From positions 1 to 62,234 of the forward strand of contig CALJWL010000033.1 in NCBI GenBank assembly GCA_937974565.1: a stretch of DNA of 62,234 nucleotides, written 5' to 3'. The stretch's first letter is position 1. Each line of letters starts with the position of its first letter. Source of the DNA: an uncultured Arenicella sp. (GTDB taxonomy: Bacteria > Pseudomonadota > Gammaproteobacteria > Arenicellales > Arenicellaceae). Under the pieces are notes generated by a model. That model worked only from the letters and a program-made list of their open reading frames with translations. It searched no databases and was not told the origin of the DNA. Of this stretch, positions 29,053 through 45,168 are shown piece by piece. The translations under genes and the position numbers were made by a program.

Positions 29053-31047
29053 ATGTCAGATTCCAAACAATATGATGTTGTCATCGTTGGTGCAGGCATA
29101 GCCGGCGCTATTGTCGCTTATCAGTTAGGTAAAGCAGGGAAGAAAGTGCTTATCCTAGAGGCTGGCCAAGCCATTCCCGTTGATCGATCGGGTTACATGA
29201 AAACATTTTTCATGGCCAGTGCAAAGACCCCTGAGTCACCTTACCCTCCAACCACGCAAGGCGCTGTGCCTTCAACTTCCAGCAACCCTTTAGGTCTGCC
29301 GGACCCAGCGAACGAAAACACCCCCAGATACACCGTATTGCAGATTGCCTCGTGGCGCAAAAGCGATCAGTGCTACTTTGATTACACGCCTCAAGACCCG
29401 GGCGTTACCGGCACCAGTTTAAATGCTAAATTTGCGTTTGGAAGCTCTTATGAGCGCATTGGTGGCGGCACAACTTGGCATTGGTTGGGCACGTCGTTGC
29501 GCCTCTTTCCTGAAGATTTCAAGCTGAAAACACTTTACAATCAGGGCGTGGACTGGCCAAACATTGACACGTTTTACGATGAGTTAGTGCCTTACTATGA
29601 GCAGGCCACCGCAGAAATAAACGTGTCCGGCGATGAAGATAAATTGCAACGGGTGTATCGACAATACAATGTTGACCCCAGCGGCGATTACGGTGAGAAC
29701 TACACTTACCCTATGCCGGGTATCACGCAAAGCTTGCAAGATGACCTTTACAACAGCTTAAATAATTTAGACTACGAAGGTAATCCAGTCTATGTTACGC
29801 CAACTCCGCAAGCACGAAACTCATTACCGGGTGAACGCCGCCAGTGTGCGGGTAATACTAATTGCATCCCGATTTGCCCAATTCAAGCTAAATACGACGC
29901 CACCGTCACCATCGGGCGTGCTTTGCAAACCGGCAATGTGGACATTTTGTATCAACACGTGGCCAGCAATATTGTACTTGACCCTCAAACCAAACAAGTT
30001 TCAAGCATTGAATATATTAAATACGATGTAGCCAACGGTCCGGCATCGGGAACTGGTTCGGTATCTGCATCACACTTTGTGTTAGCCGCGCACGCCATTG
30101 AAACGCCTAAATTGTTGTTGATGTCGAACAAAAACCCAGGTTTTGAAAACGGCGTTGCCAATAGCAGTGATCAGGTTGGCCGTAACTTAATGGATCACAT
30201 TATGTATTTGGGCTGGGGGTTATCCAGCGACCCGATTTACCCGTATCGTGGCCCGCTCTCTACTTCAGGTATTGAGTCGCTAAGAGACGGAGATTTGCGC
30301 AACGAACATTCAACCTATCGAGTTGAAATCGGTAACGAAGGTTGGCAATGGGCGGCAAACGACCCGGGCACAACATTGGCCGATTTTGTTTTTGGGCAAA
30401 ATAATTCGCAAACCAATGGGGACTCCATGAACGAGCAAGGCCTGCCTTTGCGCTTCAATTCAGAATTGCCGGCGTTCAGCAAACTGTTTGGTGAGGAGTT
30501 GGTGAATACGTTGAATGGTATTTATACCCGCCAGACTAGGTTAGGCTATTTAATCGAGCAATTACCCGACCCTGATAACCGAGTTCAAATATCGCCCACA
30601 CTGACAGATAATTTAGGTTTACCGCGCCCAATGGTGACGTATAGGCTGGCATCAGACTACGAACGTAAAGCGTTTGTTTCAGCCAAGAAACTGACCACTG
30701 AGTTGTTTGATAAGTTAGGCGTGACTGAATACACACAAAAACCATCGGCACCGATCTTTGACGGTGACCCTGACGAGGTAACCTCAAGCCAGTTTCAATA
30801 CACTGATGAGCAAGGTGAAACGCATAACTTTACGTTCTACGGAGCAGGGCACATCGTTGGCACTTACCGGATGGGCGATGATCGATCCACCTCGGTGCTA
30901 AATCCACGGCAACAATCATGGGACCACGATAATCTGTTTATGGTAGGAAGCGGCGTATTTCCGACCATCGCCACAGGCAACCCAACACTAACGATTGCCG
31001 CGCTAGCGTTTCAGGCTGCGGATAATCTGTTGAGTGATTTAAGTTGA
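29053..31047 (+). CDS. GMC family oxidoreductase, FAD catalytic subunit
   Basis: 664-aa flavoprotein. The N-terminal Rossmann fold is YDVVIVGAGIAGAIVAYQLGKAGKKVLILEAG. The GMC signature block is RIGGGTTWHWLGTSLRL, a Cys-rich insertion is RQCAGNTNCIPICPIQAKYD, and the C-terminal catalytic region is GAGHIVGTYRMGDD with GNPTLTIAALAFQAADNLL (His and Asn positions of the active site). It resembles the large subunit of membrane-bound sugar/polyol dehydrogenases. Together with the haem lipoprotein and small subunit it forms a probable three-component periplasmic enzyme. The substrate is unknown; sugar or polyol oxidation is the leading guess given the nearby cellulase. Confidence 0.85.
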   Translation: MSDSKQYDVVIVGAGIAGAIVAYQLGKAGKKVLILEAGQAIPVDRSGYMKTFFMASAKTPESPYPPTTQGAVPSTSSNPLGLPDPANENTPRYTVLQIASWRKSDQCYFDYTPQDPGVTGTSLNAKFAFGSSYERIGGGTTWHWLGTSLRLFPEDFKLKTLYNQGVDWPNIDTFYDELVPYYEQATAEINVSGDEDKLQRVYRQYNVDPSGDYGENYTYPMPGITQSLQDDLYNSLNNLDYEGNPVYVTPTPQARNSLPGERRQCAGNTNCIPICPIQAKYDATVTIGRALQTGNVDILYQHVASNIVLDPQTKQVSSIEYIKYDVANGPASGTGSVSASHFVLAAHAIETPKLLLMSNKNPGFENGVANSSDQVGRNLMDHIMYLGWGLSSDPIYPYRGPLSTSGIESLRDGDLRNEHSTYRVEIGNEGWQWAANDPGTTLADFVFGQNNSQTNGDSMNEQGLPLRFNSELPAFSKLFGEELVNTLNGIYTRQTRLGYLIEQLPDPDNRVQISPTLTDNLGLPRPMVTYRLASDYERKAFVSAKKLTTELFDKLGVTEYTQKPSAPIFDGDPDEVTSSQFQYTDEQGETHNFTFYGAGHIVGTYRMGDDRSTSVLNPRQQSWDHDNLFMVGSGVFPTIATGNPTLTIAALAFQAADNLLSDLS

Positions 31048-31174
31048 AAAGCATTCAACCTGTGTTGAGTTAATGCAGTGCGCTCTGTTGTCTGAAGAGG
31101 CTGGTCAATTGGTGTTGCTGGTTTTAGCGCTGTTTTTCTAGATTAACCGCTGATTGCCGAGGTTGTTATAAACT

Positions 31175-32269
31175 ATGAGTGCGCTATCAAACGAGGTGGG
31201 TTTAATGTGTGATGCTGTTGGCTTTTGTGCTGGTGGCCATGTGACACACGAAACCCACTCTCTCCCCAAGGGCATGGTTACTCAGCGCTTAGGGCGCCTT
31301 GCTAATTGGCATGGCGTCTTAGGGTGCGTGGCGCACTATTTAAATGAATCATGCGGTCCAAAAAGTAAACTGGCCATTGGTGTAAAACCAATACTTTATC
31401 GCAAAGCCATCGAGCGAGCGTTGTATTTGAAACAGCTTGATAGTGTGACAGAGTCGTTTAACGCAATGCAAATCGACTACGTTATTTTCAAAGGAGCCGC
31501 TGCCACCGCCCAGTTTTATGGGCATTCTTTCGACTGTTTGCGTTCCAGTGCTGATATTGATTTTTTAGTAAAACCCTCGCATTTTTTGCGAGCCGTGCAA
31601 ACTCTGTGTCAATTAGGTTACCGCTCAATTGACTGCGATAATGCTGAAAAAGTCGCACACTTTGTCACGCACTCAGCAGATAAGCTGTGCAAACGAGGGC
31701 TGGTGTTTCGTCATAAGGACGATCAACTAGCCAATGTCGATATACATTGGAGAGTCGCTAATACATTCTCGTTACCTCTGGATGCGGACGCTATTTTGGA
31801 GAGTAGACAAGCCAAAAAAATTGGGCAAAATGACTGTTATGTACCTAGCTTTAGCCACCATTTCATTGCTTCAGCGATTCATGGTTACTTAGATTACTTT
31901 TTTCAGCTAAAGCATTTGGCTGATTTGTATTTCGCCATGCATTGCACTGACTACAATCAACAATCTATACTGGCGATAGCCGAGGATTTGGGAGTTCGCA
32001 ACCAAGTCTTTGAAAGTATGAGCTTCGCGCATGTTATGTTTTCAACGTCATCAGCAAACCGAAATGCGGTATCCGCATTTGAAAAGAAGGCGATGAATCG
32101 TTATGTCTCATTCAATGGGTGGGTTCCCAGGTATCACAACGTAGATGGAGAATGGAGTCTAATGAATAAATTGAGTTATATATTTAAACAAATTAACACT
32201 CGCAGTAAAAAAGCGTCTTGGTCTGACCCTATAAGGAATCGCTTTTTGGTAAAATTCGAACAACTGTGA
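31175..32269 (+). CDS. Nucleotidyltransferase family protein of a lasso-like RiPP locus
   Basis: 364-aa protein of the NTP_transf_5 type. The conserved core is FKGAAATAQFYG followed by SSADIDFLVKPSHF (residues about 103-135), giving the Asp pair for metal binding, and later DIHWRV. The family is recurrent beside lasso-peptide-type genes with HPr-kinase-like and sulfotransferase genes; its reaction is not firmly established and modification of the peptide or a phosphorylated peptide is inferred. It is the first gene of the block, 43 bases before the B2 gene. It has no membrane segment and is Cys-rich at the N-terminus (MCDAVGFCAGG). Confidence 0.75.
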   Translation: MSALSNEVGLMCDAVGFCAGGHVTHETHSLPKGMVTQRLGRLANWHGVLGCVAHYLNESCGPKSKLAIGVKPILYRKAIERALYLKQLDSVTESFNAMQIDYVIFKGAAATAQFYGHSFDCLRSSADIDFLVKPSHFLRAVQTLCQLGYRSIDCDNAEKVAHFVTHSADKLCKRGLVFRHKDDQLANVDIHWRVANTFSLPLDADAILESRQAKKIGQNDCYVPSFSHHFIASAIHGYLDYFFQLKHLADLYFAMHCTDYNQQSILAIAEDLGVRNQVFESMSFAHVMFSTSSANRNAVSAFEKKAMNRYVSFNGWVPRYHNVDGEWSLMNKLSYIFKQINTRSKKASWSDPIRNRFLVKFEQL

Positions 32270-32312
32270 AGATTAAGTACCTAATCAAATTTTATTAAGA
32301 CTCGATACGCCA

Positions 32313-32777
32313 GTGACATTAAAAGAAAAGATAGCCTTTGTATGGGGTCTGCCTAGAAAACGTAAAATTTGGCTTATTGGGTGCTTTTTAGGGTCTGTTT
32401 TAACCTTGCCGATTATCTACGTTCTGCCAAGTAAATGGCTTAAATATTTCCTTGGGTATAATCTTAAAAATCGTCAGTTGTGCGTATTGGTAACCGCGCA
32501 GCAACTTGTCTATTCAAGGCAAATTGCATCACTGATGAGAACGGTAGCCAGCAATACTCCATGGCCTTGCAGATGCTTAGCTCAGGCGTTGTGTATTAAG
32601 TGGATACTTACCTTAGAAAAGATACCCTCAGTGACCTATCTGGGAACAGCCCGAGAGTTAGGCCAATTTAAAGCCCACGCCTGGGTCACTGTTGGGGCGT
32701 TAACGGTCATTGGTGGCCATAACAATCAATATTCAATTGTAGGGACGTTCACTTCGATTGACTTGTTAAGCAATTAG
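32313..32777 (+). CDS. Lasso peptide biosynthesis B2-type leader peptidase (transglutaminase-like)
   Basis: 154-aa protein starting with GTG 32313. After a hydrophobic N-terminal region (GCFLGSVLTLPIIYVLP) comes the B2 papain/transglutaminase-like fold: WPCRCLAQALCIKWIL with the catalytic Cys, then FKAHAWVTVGALTV with the catalytic His. B2 proteins cleave the leader from the precursor, guided by B1. The usual B2 Asp following the His strand is not obvious. Its last 12 bases overlap the end of the convergent gene at 32766, an unusual arrangement that would couple their expression negatively. Confidence 0.8.
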   Translation: MTLKEKIAFVWGLPRKRKIWLIGCFLGSVLTLPIIYVLPSKWLKYFLGYNLKNRQLCVLVTAQQLVYSRQIASLMRTVASNTPWPCRCLAQALCIKWILTLEKIPSVTYLGTARELGQFKAHAWVTVGALTVIGGHNNQYSIVGTFTSIDLLSN

Positions 32778-33899
32778 GTAAGGGTTGACCCAACCTTGTT
32801 TTTGAGTGTTTTTTTGAGCAAGCTGGTATTGCTCATGGCACAGTTGAGGCACCTCTAGTGTGTCAATGGTTTTATTGAACAGTTCGCCTGATTCGGTTCG
32901 TGATACGGCCCTGATATACGCGGTGGAAAGAGACTCGTTAAAGTCAGGGTTCAAACAGACGTTCCCTCTAGGGCCTTCAATGCTTATTTTCTTTAGTGTT
33001 TTCAGAACAGTGGAATACGCACTGTTTTCTGCCGCTTCTAGTCCCAAGGCCAATAAGCTTACTGATTCGTATGCCATTATGATATGAGGGTGAACAACAC
33101 TTTGTGACTTAGCATTAAACTCAGAAACAAAACGCAAGTATTGATCGGCGTCTCTTTGATAGGTGCTAACGGTATTAATCCCCTCTATTTTCGAACAGAA
33201 TTGATCTAAGTCGACCGTCTCTACAAACGGTGACAGTGTGATAAGTGGGGTGGTTAATTTAGCGGTGCTGGCATCGGATAAAAAATTAACCGCTTGCTTG
33301 CCTGAGTGATGTGCAAGAATTGCGTCGGGTTCCATTCTTTCGACTTCCTTGAGTAGGTCTACGCAAGCATCGTTTTCATTTTCCATATGAGTAATTTTGG
33401 TTACCTTGATGTTGGCGCCACCCGCTTCGGCGCCGACAGCTAAAGCGAGAGGAATACCGTACCCACCATCGTGACGGCCGTATATTGCGACTGAATTTTT
33501 GAAACCTAAATTAGCCGTATAAAGCCCTGTTAGCCAAGCTGTTTGCCAAAGCTGATAAGAATTCACTAATAAAGAATCGTTCAACTGTGATTCGAAAAAA
33601 ACGTCTTCGCCCATTGTGTTGGCGATCAAAATGATTTCCTCTGCTGCACAGAGTTCACTTAATGGGCCGATTAAACTTGGGTTCAGTGGGCATATTAGAC
33701 CATGCAAATTTTCTCTCATAATCATGCCTTGAACTTTCTGCCTAAGCACGTCAATGTCTTCGTTATAGTTTCCAGGCTCGAGAATTAAATTTATATGCTG
33801 GCTTGCGTTTTCTATTCCCATTTTGCAAGCAATGGGCAAATCTCGACTTAGCCGTGGTAAAAAATAAGATTGCGGGACGATGACACCTAAATTGAACAT
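32766..33899 (-). CDS. Periplasmic-binding-protein-like protein without signal peptide
   Basis: 377-aa protein of the branched-chain amino acid/urea-amide binding fold (Peripla_BP_6-type): two lobes, VIVPQSYFLPRLSRDLPIACKMGIENA at the start, NLILEPGNYNEDID, VAIYGRHDGGYGIPLALAVG, AILAHHSGKQAVNFL and VVHPHIIMAYESVSLLALGLEAA. There is no signal peptide, so it should be cytosolic, like AmiC-type sensors. No ABC permease is next to it. It is on the minus strand inside the RiPP block and overlaps the B2 gene at the 3' end. It may sense a small molecule for regulation, or be a RiPP accessory (inference). Confidence 0.65.
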   Translation of the reverse strand: MFNLGVIVPQSYFLPRLSRDLPIACKMGIENASQHINLILEPGNYNEDIDVLRQKVQGMIMRENLHGLICPLNPSLIGPLSELCAAEEIILIANTMGEDVFFESQLNDSLLVNSYQLWQTAWLTGLYTANLGFKNSVAIYGRHDGGYGIPLALAVGAEAGGANIKVTKITHMENENDACVDLLKEVERMEPDAILAHHSGKQAVNFLSDASTAKLTTPLITLSPFVETVDLDQFCSKIEGINTVSTYQRDADQYLRFVSEFNAKSQSVVHPHIIMAYESVSLLALGLEAAENSAYSTVLKTLKKISIEGPRGNVCLNPDFNESLSTAYIRAVSRTESGELFNKTIDTLEVPQLCHEQYQLAQKNTQKQGWVNPYLIA

Positions 33900-33963
33900 A
33901 TACGTTATTATTGATAAGTCGTGTTTGTGTTAGTGCATTAAAACCAGAAAATAGAAGTTGCGC

Positions 33964-33999
33964 AAATAAAAGAGGAAGTCTTGACTCCCTCTTTTATTT
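33964..33999. terminator. Terminator hairpin downstream of the collar-protein gene
   Basis: The stem aaataaaagagg (33964-33975) pairs with cctcttttattt (33988-33999), with a further agtc/gact pairing inside. It lies 25 bases after the stop of the minus-strand gene at 34025. A/T-rich arms provide U-rich ends in both directions. Confidence 0.75.
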
Positions 34000-34024
34000 T
34001 ACAGCAGATGAAACTAAACCTTAT

Positions 34025-34555
34025 TTAGCTTCTAGATGGGTAAACCCCGAATAGCGCGATGCACATATACAAGCCCAAGTATGGATTCTTAAGACTCATT
34101 TGTTGGCCGCCGCCCGTGTTTCCACATGTTATTGAGTCACTAGCCATCGCCTTATTTTCAGCAGCCACAGGTGGGGCATAAGCAAGGTGAGAAGCCAGCA
34201 TATTGCCTTGAGGGTTTCCGACTGAGGCAGCAGCCGTTTCACCATGCAACGTTACAGTATGATTATGCGATGGCAATTCGTTGACAGTGATAGTATGGTT
34301 CTCGGCTCCTCCTTTTTGCCCCCATTGCACTGAACTTAAACCTGGGCCGTTGCCGACCCCTTTCATCATGCGACCTCGTAAATCGGGTAGGCCAAAGGTA
34401 CTTCTGCCATCGCCACCAAACGTGGTGCCAACAAGTGAAAAAAGCGCTGTGTTGCTGGAAATAGCCATTAGTTGGCCATCGCAAAGAGCCCAGCCACGAG
34501 GCGCAAAGTTAAAGGCAATGGGCATTATTTCTGCAATAAAGGGGTTGGTACTCAT
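34025..34555 (-). CDS. Phage tail-collar domain protein (Mdp/microcystin-dependent family)
   Basis: 176-aa protein with the tail-collar fold. It opens NPFIAEIMPIAFNFAPRGWALCDGQLMAISSNTALFSLVGTTFGGDG and continues with TFGLPDLRGR and the histidine pair of the ELPSHNH motif, and ends PYLGLYMCIALFGVYPSRS. Such short collar proteins occur on phage tails and on bacterial chromosomes as MdpB-like proteins of unclear function. No other phage tail gene is nearby, so it is not a prophage remnant. It is downstream of the 105-aa repeat protein gene in a two-gene unit within the RiPP locus. Confidence 0.85.
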   Translation of the reverse strand: MSTNPFIAEIMPIAFNFAPRGWALCDGQLMAISSNTALFSLVGTTFGGDGRSTFGLPDLRGRMMKGVGNGPGLSSVQWGQKGGAENHTITVNELPSHNHTVTLHGETAAASVGNPQGNMLASHLAYAPPVAAENKAMASDSITCGNTGGGQQMSLKNPYLGLYMCIALFGVYPSRS

Positions 34556-34613
34556 GATAATTTCTCCGTTTTTAACGTTATTAAATTGGTGGTTGTTGAG
34601 TTATGTCTGCCGT

Positions 34614-34931
34614 CTACTCGGAAGCTAATAGAGCTTCTGCGCTTTTCTCAAAATCAGCATGGAATTCACTCGGCAATGCGGCGAGAACCATGGCTTTTTG
34701 TTCATCCAGAGTGGGCGTCGCTTCTTGAGCAGGAAGCACTGAGTCGATATCAACTTCGCTTTTAAGAGCGTCTGGCAGACTGTGTATAATTTGTTGCTTG
34801 GTTATCTCAATATCGTCTTGATTTACTTCGCAGTTTTCTATACAAGTGTCTGCGTGTTCCTTTAAGTCATCTGGAAGCTGTGAACGGATAAAATCCATAT
34901 TAGCTTCCAGGCTCTCTTTAACTTTGCTCAT
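34614..34931 (-). CDS. Small acidic protein with three internal repeats
   Basis: 105-aa cytosolic-type protein, strongly acidic. It has three copies of a helix motif with a Leu-Pro turn: IRSQLPDDLKEHADTC, IIHSLPDALKSEVDID and VLAALPSEFHADFEKS (about residues 14, 48 and 81). I do not recognise the family. It starts MSKVKESLEANMDF and ends LLASE. It is followed 58 bases later by the collar protein gene. It is too long and repetitive to be an obvious RiPP precursor, but a role as binding partner or substrate cannot be excluded. Confidence 0.55.
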   Translation of the reverse strand: MSKVKESLEANMDFIRSQLPDDLKEHADTCIENCEVNQDDIEITKQQIIHSLPDALKSEVDIDSVLPAQEATPTLDEQKAMVLAALPSEFHADFEKSAEALLASE

Positions 34932-35331
34932 AGTACGAATTCCTGAATTTAATGTTATAAAATTAGCGGGCTAGAACGTTAGTGTCACCCTTACTGTTAT
35001 TAAGTAAGACCCCTTAACTAATTAGAATCCCTTTATCTGGACGAATCCATTACGCTCCATTACACTCTTGCGCATGGAAGCCTTTATTTCTAATCCTTCA
35101 ATTCCAATGAATCCATTTAGATACACTTAGGATGAATAAAGGCCAATTACCCTACAATACAGTTGGACTTCCTTGGGGCTCTTTATATTGTGGGGGTCGA
35201 GACAGGCGAAAGCCAAGTTTTGTTTTCACTCAGACGTCTACCCACAACAATATTATTACCACCTGGTTTGTGGGATTACTCTCAGTTGCGTTGGATCAAA
35301 GGCGTTTAACGTTGTTGTTGAATCGTGCCAA
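34932..35331. other. Divergent control region before the asparagine-synthetase-like gene, with a coupled 67-codon frame
   Basis: 400 bases between the 105-aa gene (-) and the next plus gene. It includes an open frame of 67 codons (35132-35335) whose TGA overlaps the ATG at 35332 (ATGA), starting MNKGQLPYNTVGLPWGS; its RBS is poor. There are repeated gaatccattt/gaatccatta words around 35043-35120. Promoters are probably here, but no consensus is clear. Confidence 0.35.
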
Positions 35332-37188
35332 ATGATTGCCGGTGGTTTTGCATATTGGCATGAAGAAGAAATGGATTGCTCTGAACGGGCAAACGTGTGT
35401 CGAATATTTGATCAACTTCGCTCGAAGGATTTTGAACCGTTGGCGTTGATCCCGCACGATGTTCGGCAAGAATATGTCGGAAATGGGGTGCAGTTAATAC
35501 AACAGTCTTTGCCTTACTCAGAAGTTGTGGATTTCGCACGATGCAACGAAACTCAGCAAGTTTGCGTGAGTTGGTCGAGATTGGAGAATCACCGTGAACT
35601 TGATTTAAATTCGCCAATAGCACCAAAATCTAAACATAACAACGCCGCGTGGATTTTGTCTAACTATCAACAATGGTCTACTGAGTGCCCTAATTTTATT
35701 GAAGGGGATTTTGTTTTTGCGATACACGACCCCGTTTCTGATCACTTATTTTTGGCAAGAGACCGAATGGGGGTTAAGCCGCTTTACTACAGTGAAGATC
35801 CTTCGTGCTTTTTATTTGCTTCTAATTTGGCGGCAATCGCTAGATTGGATGACGTTGATAATAGCCCCTCGGTAAGTTGGATAGCTCAATATCTGTACAG
35901 ACACTTTATTGGTAACACCTCAACAGCGTTTGAGAATATTAAGAAACTGCCAGCGGGTCATGCATTAATCCTTAAAAAAGATAAGAGGGGCAGACCACAT
36001 GAGCCAAAGATTTGGGCGTACTGGACATTGGCGGACATCGCGAGTAAGCCTAATGAAAAACGAAGTTCAGAGGAGCATGTCAGGAGATATAAAGAGTGTT
36101 TTGATGCGGCGGTATTAAAGCGAGTTTCAGATAAACACTTGACGGGTGTAGAGTTATCGGGTGGTTTAGACTCATCGTCAATCATGTCATCTTTAATGAA
36201 ACAAATTCCGTCTTCAGATGCACATTGCTTTAGCCGCGAATTTTTTACATTAGAGAAAAAGCCTTTAGAAGCGTTACGTGAACTTTACCCTAAATCGTAT
36301 CACCATATCTGGAGAACCCCTGAAGAAAGTAATATCAACTATCATCAAAATTTAGAGCGCTATATCAAATTGTTTGGTTTGCCTGATGAGCATTCTTTAG
36401 CCATTGGTTGTTCTGATTTTCTTGTCACGGCGAATGAGTGTAATGTCAAAACCATGTTAAGCGGCTACGGTGGAGATGAGTTCTCAAGCGCGTTTGGGCA
36501 TGATGTGCTTGTCGAGCTTGCTGATCAACGTCGGTTTTTATCATTATTTTCCCGATTAAATGGCCCCCCAACAAAGCGCCTTAAAGATGCGTATAGAATG
36601 TTTTTCCGTAGGCATTCAAAAAGCATGATTCGCCCCAAAATGTTACGACTCGAACATGCTGAGTTGCAGTATATAGATCAGCATCGCAGACTCTTTTATG
36701 AAAATTTAGCGAACGAGAAATCTCATAACCGGCGTATGGTTAAACGTTGGCAGCAAAGCGGAGTACAACGGTTGGAGTCTCATACGCTTGCTGGCTCTGG
36801 GTACGGTGTTTCATTTAATTGGCCTTTTCTTGATGAGACGCTGTTGAGTTGTTTTTTTTGCACACCAATTGAAGAAAGGCTGGGGCGAGGCTCTAACACA
36901 CGATGGTTGCACCGGCGCGCGTTTAGAAATAGCTTGCCAGATGTTATCGTAAATAAAAATGATAAGGATGTTGGCCATTTAGTCGGCGACAGTGATTCTT
37001 ACGATGCTTTTATGCAGCGGTTTTCTAATGAAATGAATTTGCACCCCCTTTTGAAATCATTGGTTGATGAGACGGTGTTAAGTCAGTTTTTTTCCAACCC
37101 CAATCAAGAACAAAGAGAGGTATTCATGTATCGTTACACGTACAAATCTATTTATAGTATTAACCTTTGGCTGAAAGAATACTTCTAG
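35332..37188 (+). CDS. Asparagine-synthetase-like protein (lasso cyclase C homologue)
   Basis: 618-aa protein. ATG 35332 was chosen because it yields the family-like start IAGGFAYW; reading upstream in frame adds foreign residues. The N-terminal half is a degenerate glutamine amidotransferase domain (no catalytic Cys2; GDFVFAIHDPVSDHLFLARDRMGVKPLYY). The C-terminal half is an ATP-pyrophosphatase domain with the loop SGGLDSSS (276-283) and GYGGDEFSSAF. In lasso-type systems C activates the Asp/Glu side chain and joins it to the N-terminal amine of the core. It is followed by the kinase gene 19 bases later. A true asparagine synthetase would keep Cys2. Confidence 0.8.
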   Translation: MIAGGFAYWHEEEMDCSERANVCRIFDQLRSKDFEPLALIPHDVRQEYVGNGVQLIQQSLPYSEVVDFARCNETQQVCVSWSRLENHRELDLNSPIAPKSKHNNAAWILSNYQQWSTECPNFIEGDFVFAIHDPVSDHLFLARDRMGVKPLYYSEDPSCFLFASNLAAIARLDDVDNSPSVSWIAQYLYRHFIGNTSTAFENIKKLPAGHALILKKDKRGRPHEPKIWAYWTLADIASKPNEKRSSEEHVRRYKECFDAAVLKRVSDKHLTGVELSGGLDSSSIMSSLMKQIPSSDAHCFSREFFTLEKKPLEALRELYPKSYHHIWRTPEESNINYHQNLERYIKLFGLPDEHSLAIGCSDFLVTANECNVKTMLSGYGGDEFSSAFGHDVLVELADQRRFLSLFSRLNGPPTKRLKDAYRMFFRRHSKSMIRPKMLRLEHAELQYIDQHRRLFYENLANEKSHNRRMVKRWQQSGVQRLESHTLAGSGYGVSFNWPFLDETLLSCFFCTPIEERLGRGSNTRWLHRRAFRNSLPDVIVNKNDKDVGHLVGDSDSYDAFMQRFSNEMNLHPLLKSLVDETVLSQFFSNPNQEQREVFMYRYTYKSIYSINLWLKEYF

Positions 37189-37207
37189 CGCTTTTAACTT
37201 AAATTTC

Positions 37208-38119
37208 ATGTACTTTTATACGGTTTATAATCTTCATGTTTGTTCTGACTTTGAAATACCAGAGTTGTTTTCTTGGCCAAATGGTTGCCAAGAAAAAGCG
37301 GATCTGTGCATTTCTGAAGGACGTATTTCTGAGAGTCAAAAAAGTGGTTTATCTCAGGTAGGCCCATTTTTGTTTGGTGATGAGCAGACTGTTTTCTTAA
37401 CAGTGCCGGACATCGCGCGTTTTTTAGTGCAGTCGGGTAAGAACATTGTGTATCAAAAGTTGGGGAACAGTCGTGACGACGATGTTCGTGTGTTTTTATT
37501 GGGCTCGTGTTTGGGCGCGATATTAATACAGCGTGGCTTTTTGGTACTGCATGGTTGCACTGTTAAAATAGGGCAGGGCTGTGTTGTTTGCGTTGGGCAT
37601 TCAACCGTAGGCAAGTCAACGTTGGCCGCTGCATTTATGCGCAAGGGTTATTCCTTAATGTCAGACGACGTGTGTGCCATTAATGAAAACGGTGAGGCCA
37701 TCCCCAGTATTCCGAGAATAAAGCTCAATAAGAATATGGCCGATTTGCTTGAAATTAATACGGGCGGCCTGAAAACCATCAGGGCTGCCTGTGACTCTAA
37801 GTTCTCATTGCCTTTGGGCAACAAATTCAATGACACCAATCTGCCGGTATACGCCGTGTATGAGCTGAGTGTGTGGTCGTCAGCAACCACCATAGAGAGT
37901 GACTTGAATAAGGTTGAACATTTTTCGCTGTTGAATAGAAACTTATATCGTCCGCGTTACCTAATGGCAATGAATAAAAAAGCAGACGGTTTTCGGCAAT
38001 GCACTGAACTGGTTGGCAATGTTCATATGGCTCAGTTGAAACGGCCAATGCATCATGTCAGTGTTCACGACCTGTTGGAACTCATCATCAATGACCTAAA
38101 AGCCCAAGGTTTAGTTTAA
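37208..38119 (+). CDS. HPr-kinase-like protein, probable peptide-tailoring kinase
   Basis: 303-aa protein resembling the C-terminal catalytic half of HPr kinase/phosphatase. LVLHGCTVKIGQGCVVCVGHSTVGKSTLAAAF holds the P-loop GHSTVGKS; then comes SLMSDDVCAINENG with the Asp pair after the P-loop. The N-terminal part is a small domain typical of RiPP kinases rather than the HPr-K regulatory domain. In paeninodin-type clusters such kinases phosphorylate the side chain of the C-terminal Ser of the precursor. The precursor here ends in Thr-Ser. It lies between the C protein and sulfotransferase genes, in the same direction. Confidence 0.78.
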   Translation: MYFYTVYNLHVCSDFEIPELFSWPNGCQEKADLCISEGRISESQKSGLSQVGPFLFGDEQTVFLTVPDIARFLVQSGKNIVYQKLGNSRDDDVRVFLLGSCLGAILIQRGFLVLHGCTVKIGQGCVVCVGHSTVGKSTLAAAFMRKGYSLMSDDVCAINENGEAIPSIPRIKLNKNMADLLEINTGGLKTIRAACDSKFSLPLGNKFNDTNLPVYAVYELSVWSSATTIESDLNKVEHFSLLNRNLYRPRYLMAMNKKADGFRQCTELVGNVHMAQLKRPMHHVSVHDLLELIINDLKAQGLV

Positions 38120-38147
38120 GCAACGGACTTTTGTGAGGATTGATCGT

Positions 38148-39035
38148 ATGACCAGCGATAAAATACTGGGTTCTAGCAATAAATTATTTTGGTTGGCTTC
38201 TTACCCTAAATCTGGCAATACCTGGTTTCGTATATTTTTGAGTAATCTCGTGAATTCAAGTGACGCTGTGGATATCAATAATTTGAGTTTTGGGCAGTAC
38301 CCTGTTCTAAGGTCGATGTTTGATGAGCTTAATGGTTTCTGTTCAACGGACCTGTCTGTGGGTGAAATAGAGCGCATTCGACCAACAGGGCTCTCTTGGT
38401 TAAACCTAAACAGTGATAGTGAGCAATATTTCAAAACCCACGCAGCATTTAGTTATAACGACCGTGATATGCCAGTGTTAGGGTCAAACGCCAGCGGAAT
38501 TGCGGGTGCGTTATACTTTGTGCGCAACCCCTTAGATGTTTGTATCTCTTATGCTCATCACGGCGGGGTCTCGATTGATACATCGATCGAAATTTTGGCG
38601 AACCCAGATCTCAAGAGTCACTCTCTTAATAGCGTTCACTTTTTACCAGAGTTCGTTGGCAGTTGGTCTCAACACGTTGAGAGTTGGGTTAATGCTGACG
38701 ATCTAAACGTTCACGTAATTCGTTACGAAGATATGTTGAATGCTTCAATACAGACGTTTACCGGCGCGTGTGAGTTTTTGCGAGTAACGACAGACTCTCA
38801 CCTGATTCAAGAGTCCTTAGGTCGCTGCAATTTTAATTCATTGCAAAAAATAGAAGAAGAAATAGACTTCGTCGAAAAGCCGATCAGTGCAGAACGATTT
38901 TTCCGTAAAGGCATTGCGGGTGATTGGCAAAATACATTGAGCGACAAGCAGGTTGAAAAAATAGTTCAATTGCACGCTGAAACCATGAGAAAATTTGGTT
39001 ATCTTGATGAAAGAAACAACCCTAAAGTGTATTAG
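38148..39035 (+). CDS. Sulfotransferase
   Basis: 295-aa PAPS-dependent sulfotransferase. The 5'-phosphosulfate loop YPKSGNTWFRIFLSNL is near residue 19, the 3'-phosphate motif RNPLDVCISYAHH about residue 125, and the C-terminal FRKGIAGDWQNTLS region holds the PAPS-binding R-K-G. I preferred ATG 38148 (GAGG nine bases upstream) over a GTG five codons earlier. It is in the RiPP operon between the kinase and PqqD-like genes, so peptide O-sulfation is a natural hypothesis; Ser, Thr and Tyr are present in the proposed core. Confidence 0.85.
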   Translation: MTSDKILGSSNKLFWLASYPKSGNTWFRIFLSNLVNSSDAVDINNLSFGQYPVLRSMFDELNGFCSTDLSVGEIERIRPTGLSWLNLNSDSEQYFKTHAAFSYNDRDMPVLGSNASGIAGALYFVRNPLDVCISYAHHGGVSIDTSIEILANPDLKSHSLNSVHFLPEFVGSWSQHVESWVNADDLNVHVIRYEDMLNASIQTFTGACEFLRVTTDSHLIQESLGRCNFNSLQKIEEEIDFVEKPISAERFFRKGIAGDWQNTLSDKQVEKIVQLHAETMRKFGYLDERNNPKVY

Positions 39036-39097
39036 TATTACGGCATCGGCTTTATGTGTTCAGCAAATAGATTAAAAACGAACATTAGGAATGATAA

Positions 39098-39373
39098 ATG
39101 TTGAAACTTGATCAAACCCTCCAACGGAATCCCGATTTAATTCACGCAAATATGGGGGACGAAACCGTGTTAATGAGCTTAACTAACGGAGAATATTATG
39201 GAATGAATGAGGTTGGGTCAAAAATTTGGGCGCTGCTCGAAGAGCCTCACACCGTTATACAACTTGCTGAAAAGTTAGCTACAATTTATGATATTGACAA
39301 AGATCACTGCTTTCAGGACATCCAGCTTTTTCTTGGTGAGCTAGAAAAGCAAGGAATAGTATACCTAAGCTAA
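39098..39373 (+). CDS. PqqD-like RiPP recognition protein (lasso B1)
   Basis: 91-aa protein of the PqqD/RRE fold: ETVLMSLTNGEYYGMNEVGSKIWALLEEPHTVIQLAEKLATIYDID, then a C-terminal helix FLGELEKQGIVYLS. B1 proteins bind the leader of the precursor and bring it to the B2 protease and the C cyclase. It follows the sulfotransferase gene by 62 bases and precedes the convergent precursor gene. Length and order are typical. Confidence 0.88.
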   Translation: MLKLDQTLQRNPDLIHANMGDETVLMSLTNGEYYGMNEVGSKIWALLEEPHTVIQLAEKLATIYDIDKDHCFQDIQLFLGELEKQGIVYLS

Positions 39374-39538
39374 CTTTGTTGCGCTTTAAATGCTCGTTGC
39401 GTTAGGTTGTGTATTGGTATGATAAAACTGCGAATTTCAATAGCAGCAAGGTAGGCAAAAAAACGATTGTTTGGCTATTTTGCCGCTATATCTACTAACT
39501 ATATTTACTATCTACTAGTATGTGTTAGGTATGTCTAT

Positions 39539-39572
39539 TAATAGGTGACATTTTTTAATAGGTAGTATTTTT
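39539..39572. repeat. 17-bp direct repeat pair after the precursor gene
   Basis: TAATAGGT-x-x-x-ATTTTT occurs twice in tandem at 17-bp spacing (from 39539 and from 39556), just beyond the precursor stop codon. The upstream sequence (39491-39520) has TCTACTA-type repeats. The role is unknown; it may be the precursor mRNA 3' end. Confidence 0.6.
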
Positions 39573-39759
39573 ATGATGTTCCAGGGTTATAGAACACCCC
39601 TTCAAGGCTAGGGACGACAAAGTTGGTGCCACTGTGAGTTTGATCCATTGAAATAACAAATAATTCAGGCGTTTGCCATTTAGCCTTACCCTTATTAGCC
39701 ATGTTCTCGGTTTCCAGTGCCGTACTTTCTAGCTTTTCGTTGTAATCTTTATTCTTCAT
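39571..39759 (-). CDS. Lasso-like RiPP precursor peptide (62 aa)
   Basis: 62-aa peptide with RBS AAGGTGA seven bases before ATG. Leader: Lys/Glu-rich start, then W28-x-x-P31-x-L33, the form of the B1/RRE-binding Y-x-x-P-x-L motif, and T41 at the usual penultimate leader place (DQTHSG). Predicted core S43 to S62 starts SGTNFVVPSL, followed by EGVFYNPGTS. The layout matches paeninodin-type precursors, including a C-terminal Ser for the HPr-kinase-like enzyme. No Asp or Glu falls at core positions 7-9; the only acidic residue is E53 (position 11, or 10 if the core starts at Gly44), so a classic lasso ring is doubtful. It is transcribed opposite to its enzymes. Confidence 0.72.
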   Translation of the reverse strand: MKNKDYNEKLESTALETENMANKGKAKWQTPELFVISMDQTHSGTNFVVPSLEGVFYNPGTS

Positions 39760-39858
39760 TTAAATCACCTTTTACATGAACTGATCTTACTCATCAACCC
39801 CAAACTCAGCCAACCCAAAGTCAGTGCTTCAGCCAAGTTACATTCATTCTTTGATGAG

Positions 39859-39890
39859 ACGGTGCTGTAAATCATTTATTGCAGCACCGT
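39859..39890. promoter_or_regulatory. Inverted repeat in the divergent precursor/hydroxylase promoter region
   Basis: The perfect 9-bp arms acggtgctg (39859-39867) and cagcaccgt (39882-39890) are separated by 14 bases, between the minus-strand precursor gene and the plus-strand hydroxylase-sulfotransferase gene. No U-run follows, so a regulator-binding dyad is more likely than a terminator. Confidence 0.55.
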
Positions 39891-39951
39891 GCTATTCTAT
39901 TCCGATAAAATAACTAAAACAATGTTTTGATCAGTGATAACGGGATTTCTG

Positions 39952-41862
39952 ATGCATTTAAGTCATAAATTTTATCGTCTGCCTATCTTCGTTGATTATA
40001 AGCAACTTGCTGAAGAAATTAGCTCCGTTGATTGTGCGCAATGGATTAATCACCCCAACCGCTTTAGCGGAAACAGCGCACTGCCGCTTGTCTCTGTTAA
40101 CGGCCAAGATAATCACGATGTGGAAGGGGCAATGATGTTGTGCGCTCGCACGCATACAATGCCGTATTTAAAAGCGGTATTAGCCAATTTGAATACGAGT
40201 ATCGGTCGTTGTCGGCTAATGCGTTTGGCGGCGGGTGCATCGGTACCAAGGCACTGTGACACCAATTTGTATTGGCGAAAGCGTGTCAGGATACACATCC
40301 CAATTGTCACCAATGAAACGGTTTTGTTTGAGTCTGGCGGCCAGATTCAGCACTTAGCGTGTGGTGAAGCGTGGGTTGTGGATACGTGGCACAACCATTC
40401 AGTCATCAATCGTGGCGGAGAGCGAATACATTTGGTGGTCGATACGCTTGGCAGTGAAGAGTTCTGGCGTGAGCTAAGAACTCGAGCTTGGAGGCCGTCA
40501 GTTCATGACGTTGCCCCCCCAAAGTCGTTTTTAGACAGTGTGGTGCAAGTCGAGGCATTGCAATCGCACAGTGAACTTGACTTTGTATTTGAAGAATCAA
40601 AAACAGCCGCAGTTTTAGACCCTGTTGACGTGGAAGAAATTATTGTTGGCTATGTCGCTGATATAGATCACAGAGCTGATGTTGATGATCGAATTAAAAT
40701 AGAAGCCGTGTTAAGAGGGTTAATAAAAAATTGGTTTACCGTTTGGCAAAGCCATGGCGTTGCTGCCGAGCATCACCCGCGTTTTCGGCTCGTTGTATTA
40801 CACGCAATTCAACAACTCGACTCTTGCAAGACAACAGCTCGTCTCGGGGTAAACGGGCAGCCTATCAATACACTTTTAGAGCAACTTATTGTTAATCTCA
40901 AGCTGCCGAACGTGGTTAAGAAAGCCACTGGTTCCTCTTTGCGTGAGATTCGTTCATCGGGGGAAAACACAGAGCTTCACCCAACGCGCATGCTTCGATC
41001 GTTTGCGCCGGTGTTTATCGTGGCTGCCCCAAGATCGGGAAGTACCTTATTGTATGAAACCTTAGGCTTGCACGAGAAGCTGATTCACTATAACTCAGAG
41101 AGCCATGCGTTGTTTGAAACCATCCCCTCTTTAACCGTTGATGCTAATGGGTCAAATGCGCTCCGTGAAGAGCATGCTACGGAGCCCGTTGTCAGAAAAT
41201 TAAAGCAGCTCTTTTTAAAACGACTGACGGATCATACGCAGGCCAATGATTTTGAAAATCAGAATGAATTTTTATTCTTAGAGAAAACACCTAAAAATGC
41301 ACTGAGAGTTGATTTCTTGAAAGTGGCTTTTCCTAACGCACGTTTTATCTACTTATTCAGAAAACCAGAGCATAATATCAGCAGCATTATTGATGGTTGG
41401 AAGTCTAGGCGTTTCATTACATATCGCCAGTTGTCTGGCTGGGATTCCGTCTACGATTGGTCTTTTTTATTACCTGAAGGCTGGCAGGGCTTACCCAGAG
41501 ACGATTTAGGCCGAATTGCGACATATCAATACCACGCTGCAAATCAGTCTATTATTGATTCGTTAGGCGATTTACAGGGAACGTCATCAATGGCTTTAAG
41601 CTACGATGAGTTCGTTTTAAACACGCAAGGTGCTTTGGAGCAAATTTGCCGTTTTTTGACGTTATCTTGGTCACCTCAGTTTGATAAAGAACTGAATAAG
41701 AGCGGTGGGTTAGCGTTATCTAAGTACACGCTTGACCCACCAAGTCAAACAAAATGGTTGCGTAACAAAGAGTTGTTGAAAGACCTACTCCCAGAAATGC
41801 GGCGCTACTACAATGAAGAAATATTAGTAGCGGCGAACGCGATTAATTTGGCGGTTACATGA
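39952..41862 (+). CDS. Fused Asp/Asn beta-hydroxylase and sulfotransferase
   Basis: 636-aa two-domain protein. ATG 39952 (GGGA upstream) is preferred over a GTG six codons earlier. Residues about 30-165 are an aspartyl/asparaginyl beta-hydroxylase domain: H101-x-D103 (VPRHCDTNLYWRKRVRIHIP), the distal His in WHNHSVINRGGERIHLVVD and an Arg for 2-oxoglutarate. A linker of about 190 residues follows, then a sulfotransferase with P-loop APRSGST (about 359-365) and the 3'-phosphate region IYLFRKPEHNISS. It is likely to hydroxylate a peptide residue with Fe(II)/2-oxoglutarate and possibly sulfate the new hydroxyl (inference). It is divergent from the precursor and upstream of the exporter. Confidence 0.82.
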   Translation: MHLSHKFYRLPIFVDYKQLAEEISSVDCAQWINHPNRFSGNSALPLVSVNGQDNHDVEGAMMLCARTHTMPYLKAVLANLNTSIGRCRLMRLAAGASVPRHCDTNLYWRKRVRIHIPIVTNETVLFESGGQIQHLACGEAWVVDTWHNHSVINRGGERIHLVVDTLGSEEFWRELRTRAWRPSVHDVAPPKSFLDSVVQVEALQSHSELDFVFEESKTAAVLDPVDVEEIIVGYVADIDHRADVDDRIKIEAVLRGLIKNWFTVWQSHGVAAEHHPRFRLVVLHAIQQLDSCKTTARLGVNGQPINTLLEQLIVNLKLPNVVKKATGSSLREIRSSGENTELHPTRMLRSFAPVFIVAAPRSGSTLLYETLGLHEKLIHYNSESHALFETIPSLTVDANGSNALREEHATEPVVRKLKQLFLKRLTDHTQANDFENQNEFLFLEKTPKNALRVDFLKVAFPNARFIYLFRKPEHNISSIIDGWKSRRFITYRQLSGWDSVYDWSFLLPEGWQGLPRDDLGRIATYQYHAANQSIIDSLGDLQGTSSMALSYDEFVLNTQGALEQICRFLTLSWSPQFDKELNKSGGLALSKYTLDPPSQTKWLRNKELLKDLLPEMRRYYNEEILVAANAINLAVT

Positions 41863-41948
41863 GAAGCTCAATCGGTGATTGGGCTTTATGTTGAAAATTT
41901 AAAAACCGCATTAGATAAGTTTTGGCTTTAACAAAAGACAATAAAAAC

Positions 41949-43673
41949 ATGCTACAAAGTATCGTTTCAGCCAAAATGCTGATATCTGAATTTTTTCGAT
42001 TTTCCCCGATAAAGATTATTTTTTGCCTTATCTTAATGGTGATTAGTAGTTTTTCTTCTGGCGTGGGGATTGCGTTAATTATCCCTTTGCTCGTAAGTGT
42101 GGGGATTGAAATAGACGCCAACGATTCTTCGGTCTCGTATTGGTTAATCAGTGCCTTTGATTTTATTGGTGTTGAAGTAAACTTGATTTCGGTTTTGGTT
42201 TTTTACCTGCTGGTGGTCTCGTTGGTTGCTGTTCTTTTATTCTGTAACTCGGTGATAGTTTCCTCGTTACAACAAGCATTTGCCGTTCACCTGAGAGGGC
42301 GTATGGCAGCCCAGCTTTTTAACGCTAATTGGCGGTTTTTGAGCCAGACGAATATGGCGGATTTTTCTCGCCTAATCACCGTGCAAGTTCAAGGAGTGGC
42401 ATCGTGTTTGAATTTGTTGATGCAGTTATGTAACAGTTCTATTTTAATCGTCATTTACGTACTCTTTTCTTTCTTCATCTCGTTTAAATTGAGTTTCTTG
42501 GCTCTGTTTTTAGGCGTGATATTGGTATTAATCACCTTGCCTATCCATCGCCGTGTTCAACGCTCTGGGGAGAAAAGCCTTTTTGGTAACAAAAACCTAT
42601 TCAGATCAGTTTTTGAAGACCTTGACAGCTTGAAAGTCATCAAGAGTTATTCTGCCGAAGACATTTATCTGAAAAAGTTGGACAAAGCCTCAAAAGTGAT
42701 GGAGTTACAACGAGTTAAATTGACCCAGTTTAATGCACTTACCAGATTGTTAAACACGATTGGTGCGGCCGCTATCTTTAGTATTTTGTTTTTTGGGGCA
42801 ATTAACTGGTTGGAAATTCCAGTGGCGAACTTATTGATTGTTTTATTGATATTTACACGTTTAATGCCTCACGTTTCCTCGGCACAAAACACAGTGCAAA
42901 GCTTTCAGCACCTTTCTCCTTTGTATCAAGAATTCTCATCAAATATCTTCGAATTGAAGCAGTGGTCAGAGGAGAGTGACAGTGAGGAAACAGTCGATTT
43001 TAGAAGTTCCATTGTTTTGAATAACGTAGCTTATAGGCATTTACAAAGAAATGAGCAGGCATTGGCCTGTGTGTCGGCTGAGATTAAACACAAAGAAACG
43101 GTTGCCATCGTGGGTGAATCCGGCGCTGGTAAATCGACACTGGCGGACTTGTTGGCTGGTTTGATAACACCAAGTTCAGGTGACATTACAATTGATGGCG
43201 TTCCTTTGAATGCCGATAACCTTAAAGGTTGGCGACAGAAGGTGGCTTATGTAACTCAAGATGCTCATTTTTTTGACGGTACGCTACGAGACAACCTGAC
43301 CTGGGTTTGTCGTGCTGATTCGCTTGATCATCGCATAGAGTTAGATCAGCGCGTATGGCAAGTGTTAGAGGCCGCATCGGCCGCTGACTTTGTTAGGAAG
43401 CTTCCCTTGGGCTTAGATTCTGTGATTGGAGACAATGGCACTAAGCTGTCCGGCGGTGAACGTCAACGTTTGGCTCTGGCAAGAGCTTTGTTGTCAGACC
43501 CTCAGGTTTTGATTTTGGATGAAGCAACCAGTGCCCTAGACAGTCAGAACGAAGAGAAGATAAAATCGGTACTGTTAGATCTGCAAGGAAAGATGACGAT
43601 TATTATTATTGCCCATAATGAATCAACCATTGAAAGTGTTAATCATCGTATAAATTTAAATAAACCGAATTAA
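41949..43673 (+). CDS. ABC exporter (lasso D-like), fused TMD-NBD
   Basis: About 574-aa half transporter starting at ATG 41949; a TTG 27 bases earlier is in frame but has no better RBS. Residues about 15-305 contain six hydrophobic helices. The NBD starts at about 345 with Walker A GESGAGKSTLADLL, Q-loop AYVTQD, signature LSGGERQRLALARALL and Walker B VLILDEATSALDSQ. It ends without an obvious N-terminal C39 peptidase, as in lasso D exporters that leave leader removal to B2. It would function as homodimer in the inner membrane to export the matured peptide; a lipid or saccharide flippase role cannot be excluded since an exopolysaccharide locus follows. Confidence 0.85.
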   Translation: MLQSIVSAKMLISEFFRFSPIKIIFCLILMVISSFSSGVGIALIIPLLVSVGIEIDANDSSVSYWLISAFDFIGVEVNLISVLVFYLLVVSLVAVLLFCNSVIVSSLQQAFAVHLRGRMAAQLFNANWRFLSQTNMADFSRLITVQVQGVASCLNLLMQLCNSSILIVIYVLFSFFISFKLSFLALFLGVILVLITLPIHRRVQRSGEKSLFGNKNLFRSVFEDLDSLKVIKSYSAEDIYLKKLDKASKVMELQRVKLTQFNALTRLLNTIGAAAIFSILFFGAINWLEIPVANLLIVLLIFTRLMPHVSSAQNTVQSFQHLSPLYQEFSSNIFELKQWSEESDSEETVDFRSSIVLNNVAYRHLQRNEQALACVSAEIKHKETVAIVGESGAGKSTLADLLAGLITPSSGDITIDGVPLNADNLKGWRQKVAYVTQDAHFFDGTLRDNLTWVCRADSLDHRIELDQRVWQVLEAASAADFVRKLPLGLDSVIGDNGTKLSGGERQRLALARALLSDPQVLILDEATSALDSQNEEKIKSVLLDLQGKMTIIIIAHNESTIESVNHRINLNKPN

Positions 43674-43764
43674 TAACAAGTTGAGTAGGGCGCGGCGGCT
43701 AGCGTAGCGAGAGCTTAACGTTTCGCAAACAGCGTATTTGATTCCAGGTCTAAGGCAGCAAGGA

Positions 43765-45168
43765 TTAATAAGCGTTTTTATCGAAAAGGACCGTGGATAA
43801 CGTTTTTAGCAAGATTCTGATATCCAAGGCCACTGACCAATTTCGAATGTATTCTAAATCGTATCTTAACCGGCGCTGCATTTTTTCAATCACTTCGGTT
43901 TCGCCACGGCAGCCGTTAACTTGGGCCCACCCTGTAATGCCTGGCTTAATCTTATGACGGGCCATATAACCGTGTACCCGATCTCTGTAGTACTCGTTAT
44001 GGGCGACCGCGTGAGGTCTTGGGCCAACCAATGACATAGTGCCGTTCAAAACGTTCATTAACTGCGGTAGCTCATCCATTGAGTATTTACGGATGAACGC
44101 GCCCACTCGCGTCACCCTTGAATCTTGTTGTGTTACTTGTGGCACGTCGCTGCCATCTTCAAGTACCGTCATGGAGCGAAACTTCCAAACTAAGAACTCT
44201 TTACCATCAATACCGTAACGTCGTTGTTTGAAAATGATTGGGCCTTGAGACTCCAGTTTGATCGCCAATGCCGTTAATAACAGCAAAGGGCTCAAGACTA
44301 AGCCCATTAATAATGAGATTAACACGTCTTCGGCTCGTTTAACTCTGGCCGAGCTGCCTATAACGGGTGTCGCCGACAAATTAATGATGCTCATCCCTGC
44401 TGATTCAGTGACCGAATATTTTGAAAAATCCGCACCAAACAAATCCGGAACCAGAAAAATGTTGGTTGCGGTATTTTGTAATTCATTTTGTAACCGTTCA
44501 ATTTTTTCTGATGCACTTAAAGGTAATGCAATCCAAACCTCTTTCACCGCGTCTTCGTTTGCCTTTCTTCGAGCTTCAATGTACGCGATGGCGTCTTTTA
44601 TCTTGCCTGTGATTGGTATTCCTCTGTACTGCTGTTCTGCATCACCAGCGTCGTCAAAAAGCGCCACCACTTTTAAACCTGACCAGCGCTCTTCGATAAT
44701 CGCATCGCAAGCACGTTTGCCTAGCTCACCGGCGCCTATAACCACTACCGAGCGCTGGTTTTCAGGGTTTCTGGCTTTACCTTGACCATAACTCCATAAA
44801 GCCACACGCGACAGCATCATGACGCCATAAGCACTGGTGAAAGTCCATAAGACCCAGAGTCGTGAAAAGCTCTCGCCTGATTTTGTGAAAAAAGTAATCG
44901 CACTCAGACACAGTGCAACGATAAGCCATGCAATTGTTAGATTACTAAGCACTTTATATAACCAGCGTCCACGTTGAATACGATAGACGTCCCACCAAGA
45001 AAAGATGTTGAAGGTTAGAAAAAGAATCATCAGCAGTAACAGTTGGTAATTACTCGACAAGACCCAAAATGCATTTCGAAGCCGATACATAATGACCGCA
45101 CAGCAAACAATTGCGATTATGTCAAAAAGCTGTAGTAACCGGTTTGATTCGTTTTGATTGGGTATCAT
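43765..45168 (-). CDS. Polyprenyl glycosylphosphotransferase (WcaJ/VpsL-like)
   Basis: 467-aa membrane enzyme that starts the repeat unit by transferring a hexose-1-phosphate to undecaprenyl phosphate. There are four or five N-terminal helices, a Rossmann-like middle ([17 protein letters not shown]), and the conserved catalytic C-terminal domain: [71 protein letters not shown]. The order of neighbouring genes resembles Vibrio vps-II, where VpsL has this function. It is at the downstream end of the minus-strand glycan cluster, 127 bases after the Alg14-like gene. Confidence 0.93.

Follow-up and report, generated by a model that had tools for sequence, protein, structure and literature searches.

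Results

The window, the whole stretch of 62,234 nucleotides that was analysed, comes from an uncultured Arenicella sp. and carries a gene cluster of the lasso peptide type. On the plus strand, a gene for a nucleotidyltransferase (NTP_transf_5, PsmN/LppN type; 31175..32269; PF14907, 112.7 bits) is followed by B2, the leader peptidase (Transglut_core3; 32313..32777), which is over the cut-off of PF13471 (E 6e-15) and in which the CxCL and AHAW motifs align, so that the Cys and His motifs of the catalytic peptidase of lasso clusters are kept. Its AlphaFold2 model, built from the single sequence, has a mean pLDDT of 40.7 and supports no structural claim. Then come three genes on the minus strand, encoding a periplasmic-binding-protein-like protein (32766..33899; PF13458, 58.5 bits; 55% identity to its syntenic counterpart in G004, a genome of the same genus), a tail-collar-domain protein (34025..34555; PF07484, 96 bits; 75% identity to G004, and also found in the clusters of G961 and of G006, a further genome of the genus) and a 105-aa protein (34614..34931; 67% identity to G004, syntenic).

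Tail-collar-domain genes lie in or adjoin lasso clusters at 5 of the 34 loci with C and B1/B2 versus none of the 78 other fetched loci, a count in which the genes of the window and G004 are orthologous; G006 is a further case. Apart from the window they are located at 5872-6402 of L022, 36892-37407 of contig C27 of G006, 12822-13346 of L240, 13814-15495 of L201 and 13621-15295 of L205, and two Azospirillum plasmids have three copies each.

The plus strand continues with C, a lasso-type cyclase of the asparagine synthetase family (35332..37188), whose start was set at MIAGGF after the MIAGAF of G004. PF00733 (86.1 bits) and PF13537 are over their cut-offs and SGGLDSS and GYGGDE are kept, as in lasso cyclases, although the score against NF033535 is 189.3 bits with a cut-off of 525. 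C has no Cys at position 2 and is therefore not expected to draw ammonia from glutamine, which would fit an amine-using cyclase. The next genes encode an HPr-kinase-like protein of the PadeK type (37208..38119), just over the cut-off of PF07475 (33.4 versus 33.3 bits) with its P-loop and DD motif aligned with those of lasso kinases, a sulfotransferase (38133..39035; PF00685, 93.2 bits) and B1, a PqqD-type leader-binding protein (39098..39373; PF05402, 66.4 bits; NF033536, 78.3 bits with a cut-off of 80). The best solved relative of B1 is PbaB1 (9x90_B, E 2.1e-13). Where PbaB1 has Gly, at the position of LppB-N33, B1 of the window has Asn; a conserved Gly at this position is the rule for paeninodin-type B1 proteins in the accessible text of PMC13381572. 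Further along are an aspartyl/asparaginyl beta-hydroxylase (AspH) fused to a sulfotransferase (39934..41862; PF05118, 49.3 bits; PF13469, 79.4 bits) and D, an ABC exporter (41922..43673; PF00005, PF00664), with a peptidase domain not among its Pfam matches. Judged by their domains, B1, B2, C and the transporter are a complete lasso gene set. Clusters for linear polyphosphorylated peptides have a core without C and B2; the window has both.

The precursor peptide A (62 aa, MKNKDYNEKLESTALETENMANKGKAKWQTPELFVISMDQTHSGTNFVVPSLEGVFYNPGTS) is encoded on the minus strand at 39571..39759, antisense to the surrounding operon, with AAGGTGA, a plausible ribosome-binding site, directly upstream of its ATG. 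A reading of the sequence alone had described a W-x-x-P-x-L leader with a penultimate Thr and a core of S43-S62, and the translation agrees: W28, P31 and L33 are followed by M38-D-Q-T41-H42. The accessible part of PMC13381572 counts W-15, P-12 and L-10 in the leader of PbaA, from a paeninodin-like system, and on this numbering S43 is at +1. With the related precursors it gives a predicted leader of residues 1-42 (39634..39759, minus strand) and a predicted core, SGTNFVVPSLEGVFYNPGTS, at 39574..39633 of the same strand. A [Y/W]xxPx[L] leader with Thr at -2, as here, is typical of lasso precursors, and an HPr-type kinase in the cluster together with a C-terminal Ser in the core, also present, is typical of the paeninodin family. 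As that reading had noted, core positions 7-9 are V, P and S. E53 (codon 39601..39603, minus strand), the proposed ring-closing residue, is indeed the sole acidic residue of the predicted core; its position, given earlier as 10 or 11, is 11.

The open reading frame is a real gene. The motif W..P.[LIVM].{7}T with a tail of 12-40 aa occurred 0.15 times per 62-kb random sequence (60 first-order Markov sequences) and is expected about 0.02 times in the 8.7 kb of the cluster; in the window, 2 of the 335 ORFs of 35-100 aa match it, the precursor and another ORF starting near 15975. G004 has a precursor at the same place and on the same strand (E 1.6e-6; MQDDERKEVTTSTQEDKPVWRVPELTVISMDQTKTGTFSIANFEGAFYQTS). 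The two share 26 identical residues, 15 of which have a different codon, and this argues for selection on the precursor protein. A pseudogene or a chance ORF was thus rejected, on the synonymous codon changes and the rarity of the motif.

The precursor reaches 12.7 bits against the PadeA profile (NF033524), whose curated cut-off is 27. In the window's genome the single match at E up to 10 is the precursor itself, and the plasmids searched gave no match at E up to 1. The PadeA profile matched weakly in 29 of 369 genomes of the class, none over the cut-off; these matches are taken as chance because 4 of 14 control genomes matched too. An alignment of two precursors, run against 398 genomes of the phylum, matched in 45 at E up to 0.1 and beyond the window led to one useful place, G702. 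Many of its matches, at residues 26-62, lie inside long ORFs, mostly of one genome family, and were set aside; the short-ORF matches examined were the best of G702, G725 and G576, with stretches also of G766 and G679. A search of genome contigs with C gave one distant match.

In the window's genome, contig C53 has a second, different lasso locus (L141, 9936-10109) with an ordinary precursor whose acid is at 9. Contig C58 (L023, 7831-13811) carries a paralogous AspH, an AspH-sulfotransferase fusion and a TPR-sulfotransferase-like gene beside a TonB-receptor-like gene; the AspH fusion is the only gene of the window's cluster with a match there.

G004 repeats the gene order of the window: B2 comes before the three minus-strand genes that separate it from C, and kinase, sulfotransferase, B1, the minus-strand precursor and the AspH fusion follow. 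The G004 stretch gave no match to the exporter of the window. In G006 the cluster, on contig C27, has diverged: B2 and a precursor are followed, at some distance, by the genes for kinase, sulfotransferase, C, collar protein, exporter and B1. Its precursor ends in D/ASKPNNAAFESSPGWGIS (the slash marks the predicted cleavage site); Thr is found only at P+11 among P+10 to P+12, where P+n is the residue n positions after the leader Pro of the motif, and this puts its Glu at position 10. Precursor and cyclase are about 24 kb apart on the same contig, which makes their pairing less sure.

At the canonical register the cores of the window, G004 and G006 have no Asp or Glu at 7-9, where lasso precursors carry the acceptor; only later cleavage would bring one there. 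Each has a single acid, a Glu at 11, 10 and 10, and these residues align. The Glu is preceded by a hydrophobic residue (SLE, NFE and AFE, respectively), and the cores end in Ser, as does that of G961. The sequence-only reading had proposed comparing homologous precursors for conservation of E53 or Asn46: the Glu is conserved across G004 and G006, Asn46 is not. In the alignment with G004 a gap stands opposite N46, which was rejected as the acceptor.

In a tree of 37 cyclases the proteins of the window, G004, G006, G961, G018 and G432 fall into a single clade (support 100/99). The tree is a single search, and 12 of its rows are flagged for unusual make-up, those of the window and G006 among them. 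In the clade's four complete precursors Glu is the only core acid, at 11, 10, 10 and, in G961 (DVEETA/TG...E9, Thr at P+10), at 9. The precursor of G018 (L139, 10321-10421) runs into the contig end; what remains, VWSIPKCFVLDVGLTA/G, reads DVGLTA/G, so that P+10 is Thr and the core starts with Gly. The Thr at P+10 of G961 and G018 supports the register used for the window. On the short contig of G432 no precursor was recognised.

A second, unannotated precursor with Asp or Glu at 7-9, which would have explained the locus otherwise, was sought by motif scans and small-frame comparison in the window's cluster, G004 and the fetched parts of the G006 contig, and none was found. Comparison of small frames in 30901-44000 of the window with G004, which is blind to precursors not common to G004, gave only matches opposite known genes or weak ones; the motif scans cover such precursors. 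In G006 a relaxed motif scan of the 58 kb fetched of the 65-kb contig returned, besides the known precursor, a single ORF, which lies within a larger gene.

To read all cores alike, Thr, else Val, Ile or Ser, at P+10 to P+12 was taken as position -2. Under this rule Asp or Glu falls at 7-9 in 30 of the 36 tabulated precursors, and on this ground we consider the rule sound. The 36 were picked by motif and by eye, so that the census is hand-gathered and not a random sample. Its B2 searches matched in 38 of 109 genomes of the order and 16 of 369 of the class, two overlapping sets; further sources were plasmids, searched with kinase, B1 and sulfotransferase, the family and class of G702, searched with the sulfotransferase (one of these searches matched in 66 of 275 genomes, and stretches were fetched from 40 of the 66, G702 included), and flanking stretches. 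Seventeen rows, the window included, come from 16 of 52 B2-search stretches, a minority; 13 come from 11 of 13 plasmid stretches, two from one of five stretches of the G702 round, three from 3 of 40 sulfotransferase-search stretches and one from G004. In the other census stretches, for example L107, L116, L144, L154 and L239, no precursor was recognised. The incomplete precursor of G018 was left out of the 36, and the two of L203, a stretch with kinase and sulfotransferases and without B1, B2 and C, were nevertheless counted.

By the rule, Asn is at position 1 in both precursors of G356, in that of G1050 and in two from Tistrella (L200a, L203a); a 2025 report of Asn at this position is PMC12670498, in its accessible part. 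Two tandem precursors of G702, with a motif nearly identical to that of the window (KMDQTL, RMDETL), read S1/A1...D8 at the P+10 register and so lend it support. Six rows have no acid at 7-9: the window (E11), G004 (E10), G006 (E10), a Thalassobaculum plasmid, a Halopiger plasmid and G196. The plasmid of Thalassobaculum sp. OXR-137 (L194, 9980-10207) has a lasso cluster with kinase and sulfotransferase, and the core of its only recognised precursor, GPSTFSSGQAAHVS, has Gln at 9 and is free of acidic residues. G196 (L147, 11670-11843 and 12644-13747) has a lasso-type cluster with a gene resembling a radical SAM enzyme and a precursor with no acid within the first 14 core residues. The archaeal lasso-type cluster of the Halopiger xanaduensis plasmid (L206, 9920-10081) has a candidate precursor with acids at 5, 10 and 14.

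Discussion

From the genes, their conservation and the sole core Glu of three precursors we infer the cleavage site, the cyclisation, the threading and every modification of the following scheme. B1 would bind the WxxPxL leader, and a Ser of the core would be phosphorylated by the kinase, the C-terminal Ser62 being its likeliest target. B2 would cut after H42, with T41 at -2, and C would link the E53 side chain to the S43 amino group. The product would then be an 11-residue macrolactam whose 9-residue tail carries the bulky F56-Y57 as plug; for G004 and G006 the scheme predicts rings of 10 residues. Any macrolactam that C closes at the canonical register has to be of 10 or 11 residues, because Glu10/11 is the only acid of the core. 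The tails after the Glu, GVFYNPGTS, GAFYQTS and SSPGWGIS in the window, G004 and G006, contain aromatic residues in each case, which could serve as ring plugs. Kinase phosphorylation of the C-terminal Ser is established for paeninodin (accessible text of PMC9266682 and PMC8498205), whereas a related kinase modifies Ser3 and not the last Ser (excerpted text of PMC10368454). Sulfation and hydroxylation are predicted from the two sulfotransferase domains and the hydroxylase. On balance we favour a phosphorylated and probably sulfated lasso peptide as the product of the locus, its unusually large ring closed on Glu10/11. It is tempting, though tentative, to extend this to the whole cyclase clade, which may naturally make threaded 10-/11-residue rings on Glu, held by aromatic plugs and tail phosphate or sulfate. 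Such peptides would make up a natural class with rings above 9 residues and with tailoring by the hydroxylase-sulfotransferase fusion, a possibility that we put somewhat short of probable.

For the missing acid at 7-9 the sequence-only reading had offered three options. The first, a larger ring, is now the best supported, with the Glu conserved in three precursors. Linkage other than via Asp/Glu is not needed, since the Glu and not Asn46 is conserved, and a different RiPP class finds little support in a cluster that has B1, B2 and C, each with its key motifs. A fourth possibility, absent from that list, is later cleavage with an ordinary ring.

In that case B2 would cut after G44 and the core T45-S62 would close a 9-residue ring on E53 (T1...E8 in G004). 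P+12, then at -2, is Ser in the window and Thr in G004, with rings of 9 and 8, and is the commonest place of the -2 residue among the tabulated YxxP precursors. In G865, too, the register rule places Ser at -2. From Pro to Glu the distance is +22 in the window and +21 in G004, within the +20 to +22 of ordinary YxxP precursors whose Thr is at P+12, and a -2 residue other than Thr, Ile, is known (available text of PMC10368454). However, such a shift ignores the Thr at P+10 that is common to the window, G004, G961 and G018, where P+12 is Ser, Thr, Thr and Gly. The tabulated WxxP precursors have Thr at P+10 or P+11, with the exception of L205 from Azospirillum oryzae, where it is only at P+12. In G006, Ala would occupy -2 after a shift of two residues (E8) and Asp after a shift of one (E9). 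Because the Thr at P+10 is shared while P+12 varies, and because of the Ala at -2 in G006, we rank shifted cleavage below the large ring and consider it rather unlikely. Still further along, P+14 is Thr in the window and G004, which as -2 would give E7 and E6; in G006 it is Ser, giving E7 with Pro as residue 1. As background, engineered lasso precursors tolerate Ser at -2; the ranking above does not draw on this.

A ring of 10 or 11 residues might also be formed without threading, as a branched-cyclic peptide, or be threaded loosely, with phosphate or sulfate groups of the tail keeping it in place. According to reviews, natural lasso rings have 7-9 residues (accessible text of PMC9266682), and rings over 9 are called too flexible to hold the tail, 9 being the largest known stable ring (accessible text of PMC12427821). 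Kinase, two sulfotransferase domains and nucleotidyltransferase could bulk up the tail. Lasso cyclases are known for threading, however, and F-Y or W in the tails is plug-like, which makes an unthreaded or loose ring improbable. Least probable is that no macrolactam is made and that the product is a linear, multiply modified peptide or has another linkage, set by a C protein turned to a new use. The linear polyphosphorylated peptide family also has kinase, transporter, nucleotidyltransferase and RRE, and C proteins may do other things, as the Thalassobaculum candidate is without any core acid and G196 without one at 7-9, but in the accessible text of PMC13381572 the core genes of that family are without C or B2 and include a signal-peptidase-like protease, whereas B2 and C of the window are present and intact, and three precursors have retained the Glu despite their divergence.

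Asp or Glu at 7-9 is treated as a fixed rule of ring size in describing lasso peptides and in explaining the stability of the knot. If the large ring is true, natural rings of 10 or 11 residues would mean that the rule is not a physical limit; they would also account for the below-cut-off family scores of such precursors, and a cyclase for larger rings would be available to engineers. If cleavage has moved instead, the locus shows the evolution of the cleavage register. The literature searched, with subscription papers mostly outside it and thus no proof of absence, contained no example of a natural 10- or 11-residue ring and no natural sulfated lasso peptide.

Among known systems the locus is most readily compared with paeninodin-type lasso peptides, with which it has in common the WxxPxL leader, Thr at -2, the C-terminal Ser, a PadeK-like kinase, nucleotidyltransferase, sulfotransferase, discrete B1, B2 and C and an ABC exporter. 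It differs from them in that its precursor and B1 are below the curated cut-offs for PadeA and Bacillus-type B1, B1 has Asn for the conserved Gly, the core is without an acid at 7-9 and an AspH-sulfotransferase fusion is added. The linear polyphosphorylated peptides likewise have RRE, kinase, nucleotidyltransferase and exporter, but their core clusters are without C and B2 and their leaders are of the YxxP type, whereas the window has C, B2 and a WxxP leader. Hydroxylation of a lasso precursor by a 2-oxoglutarate enzyme is known from canucin A (CanE), as far as the accessible sources go; in contrast, the AspH-type domain of the window is fused to a sulfotransferase, and the cores are without Asp. 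The closest parallel for ring size is fusilassin, whose lasso cyclase tolerates rings of 7-10 residues in the accessible text of PMC13352647. Those rings were engineered, whereas the group around the window is natural and one of its members predicts a ring of 11.
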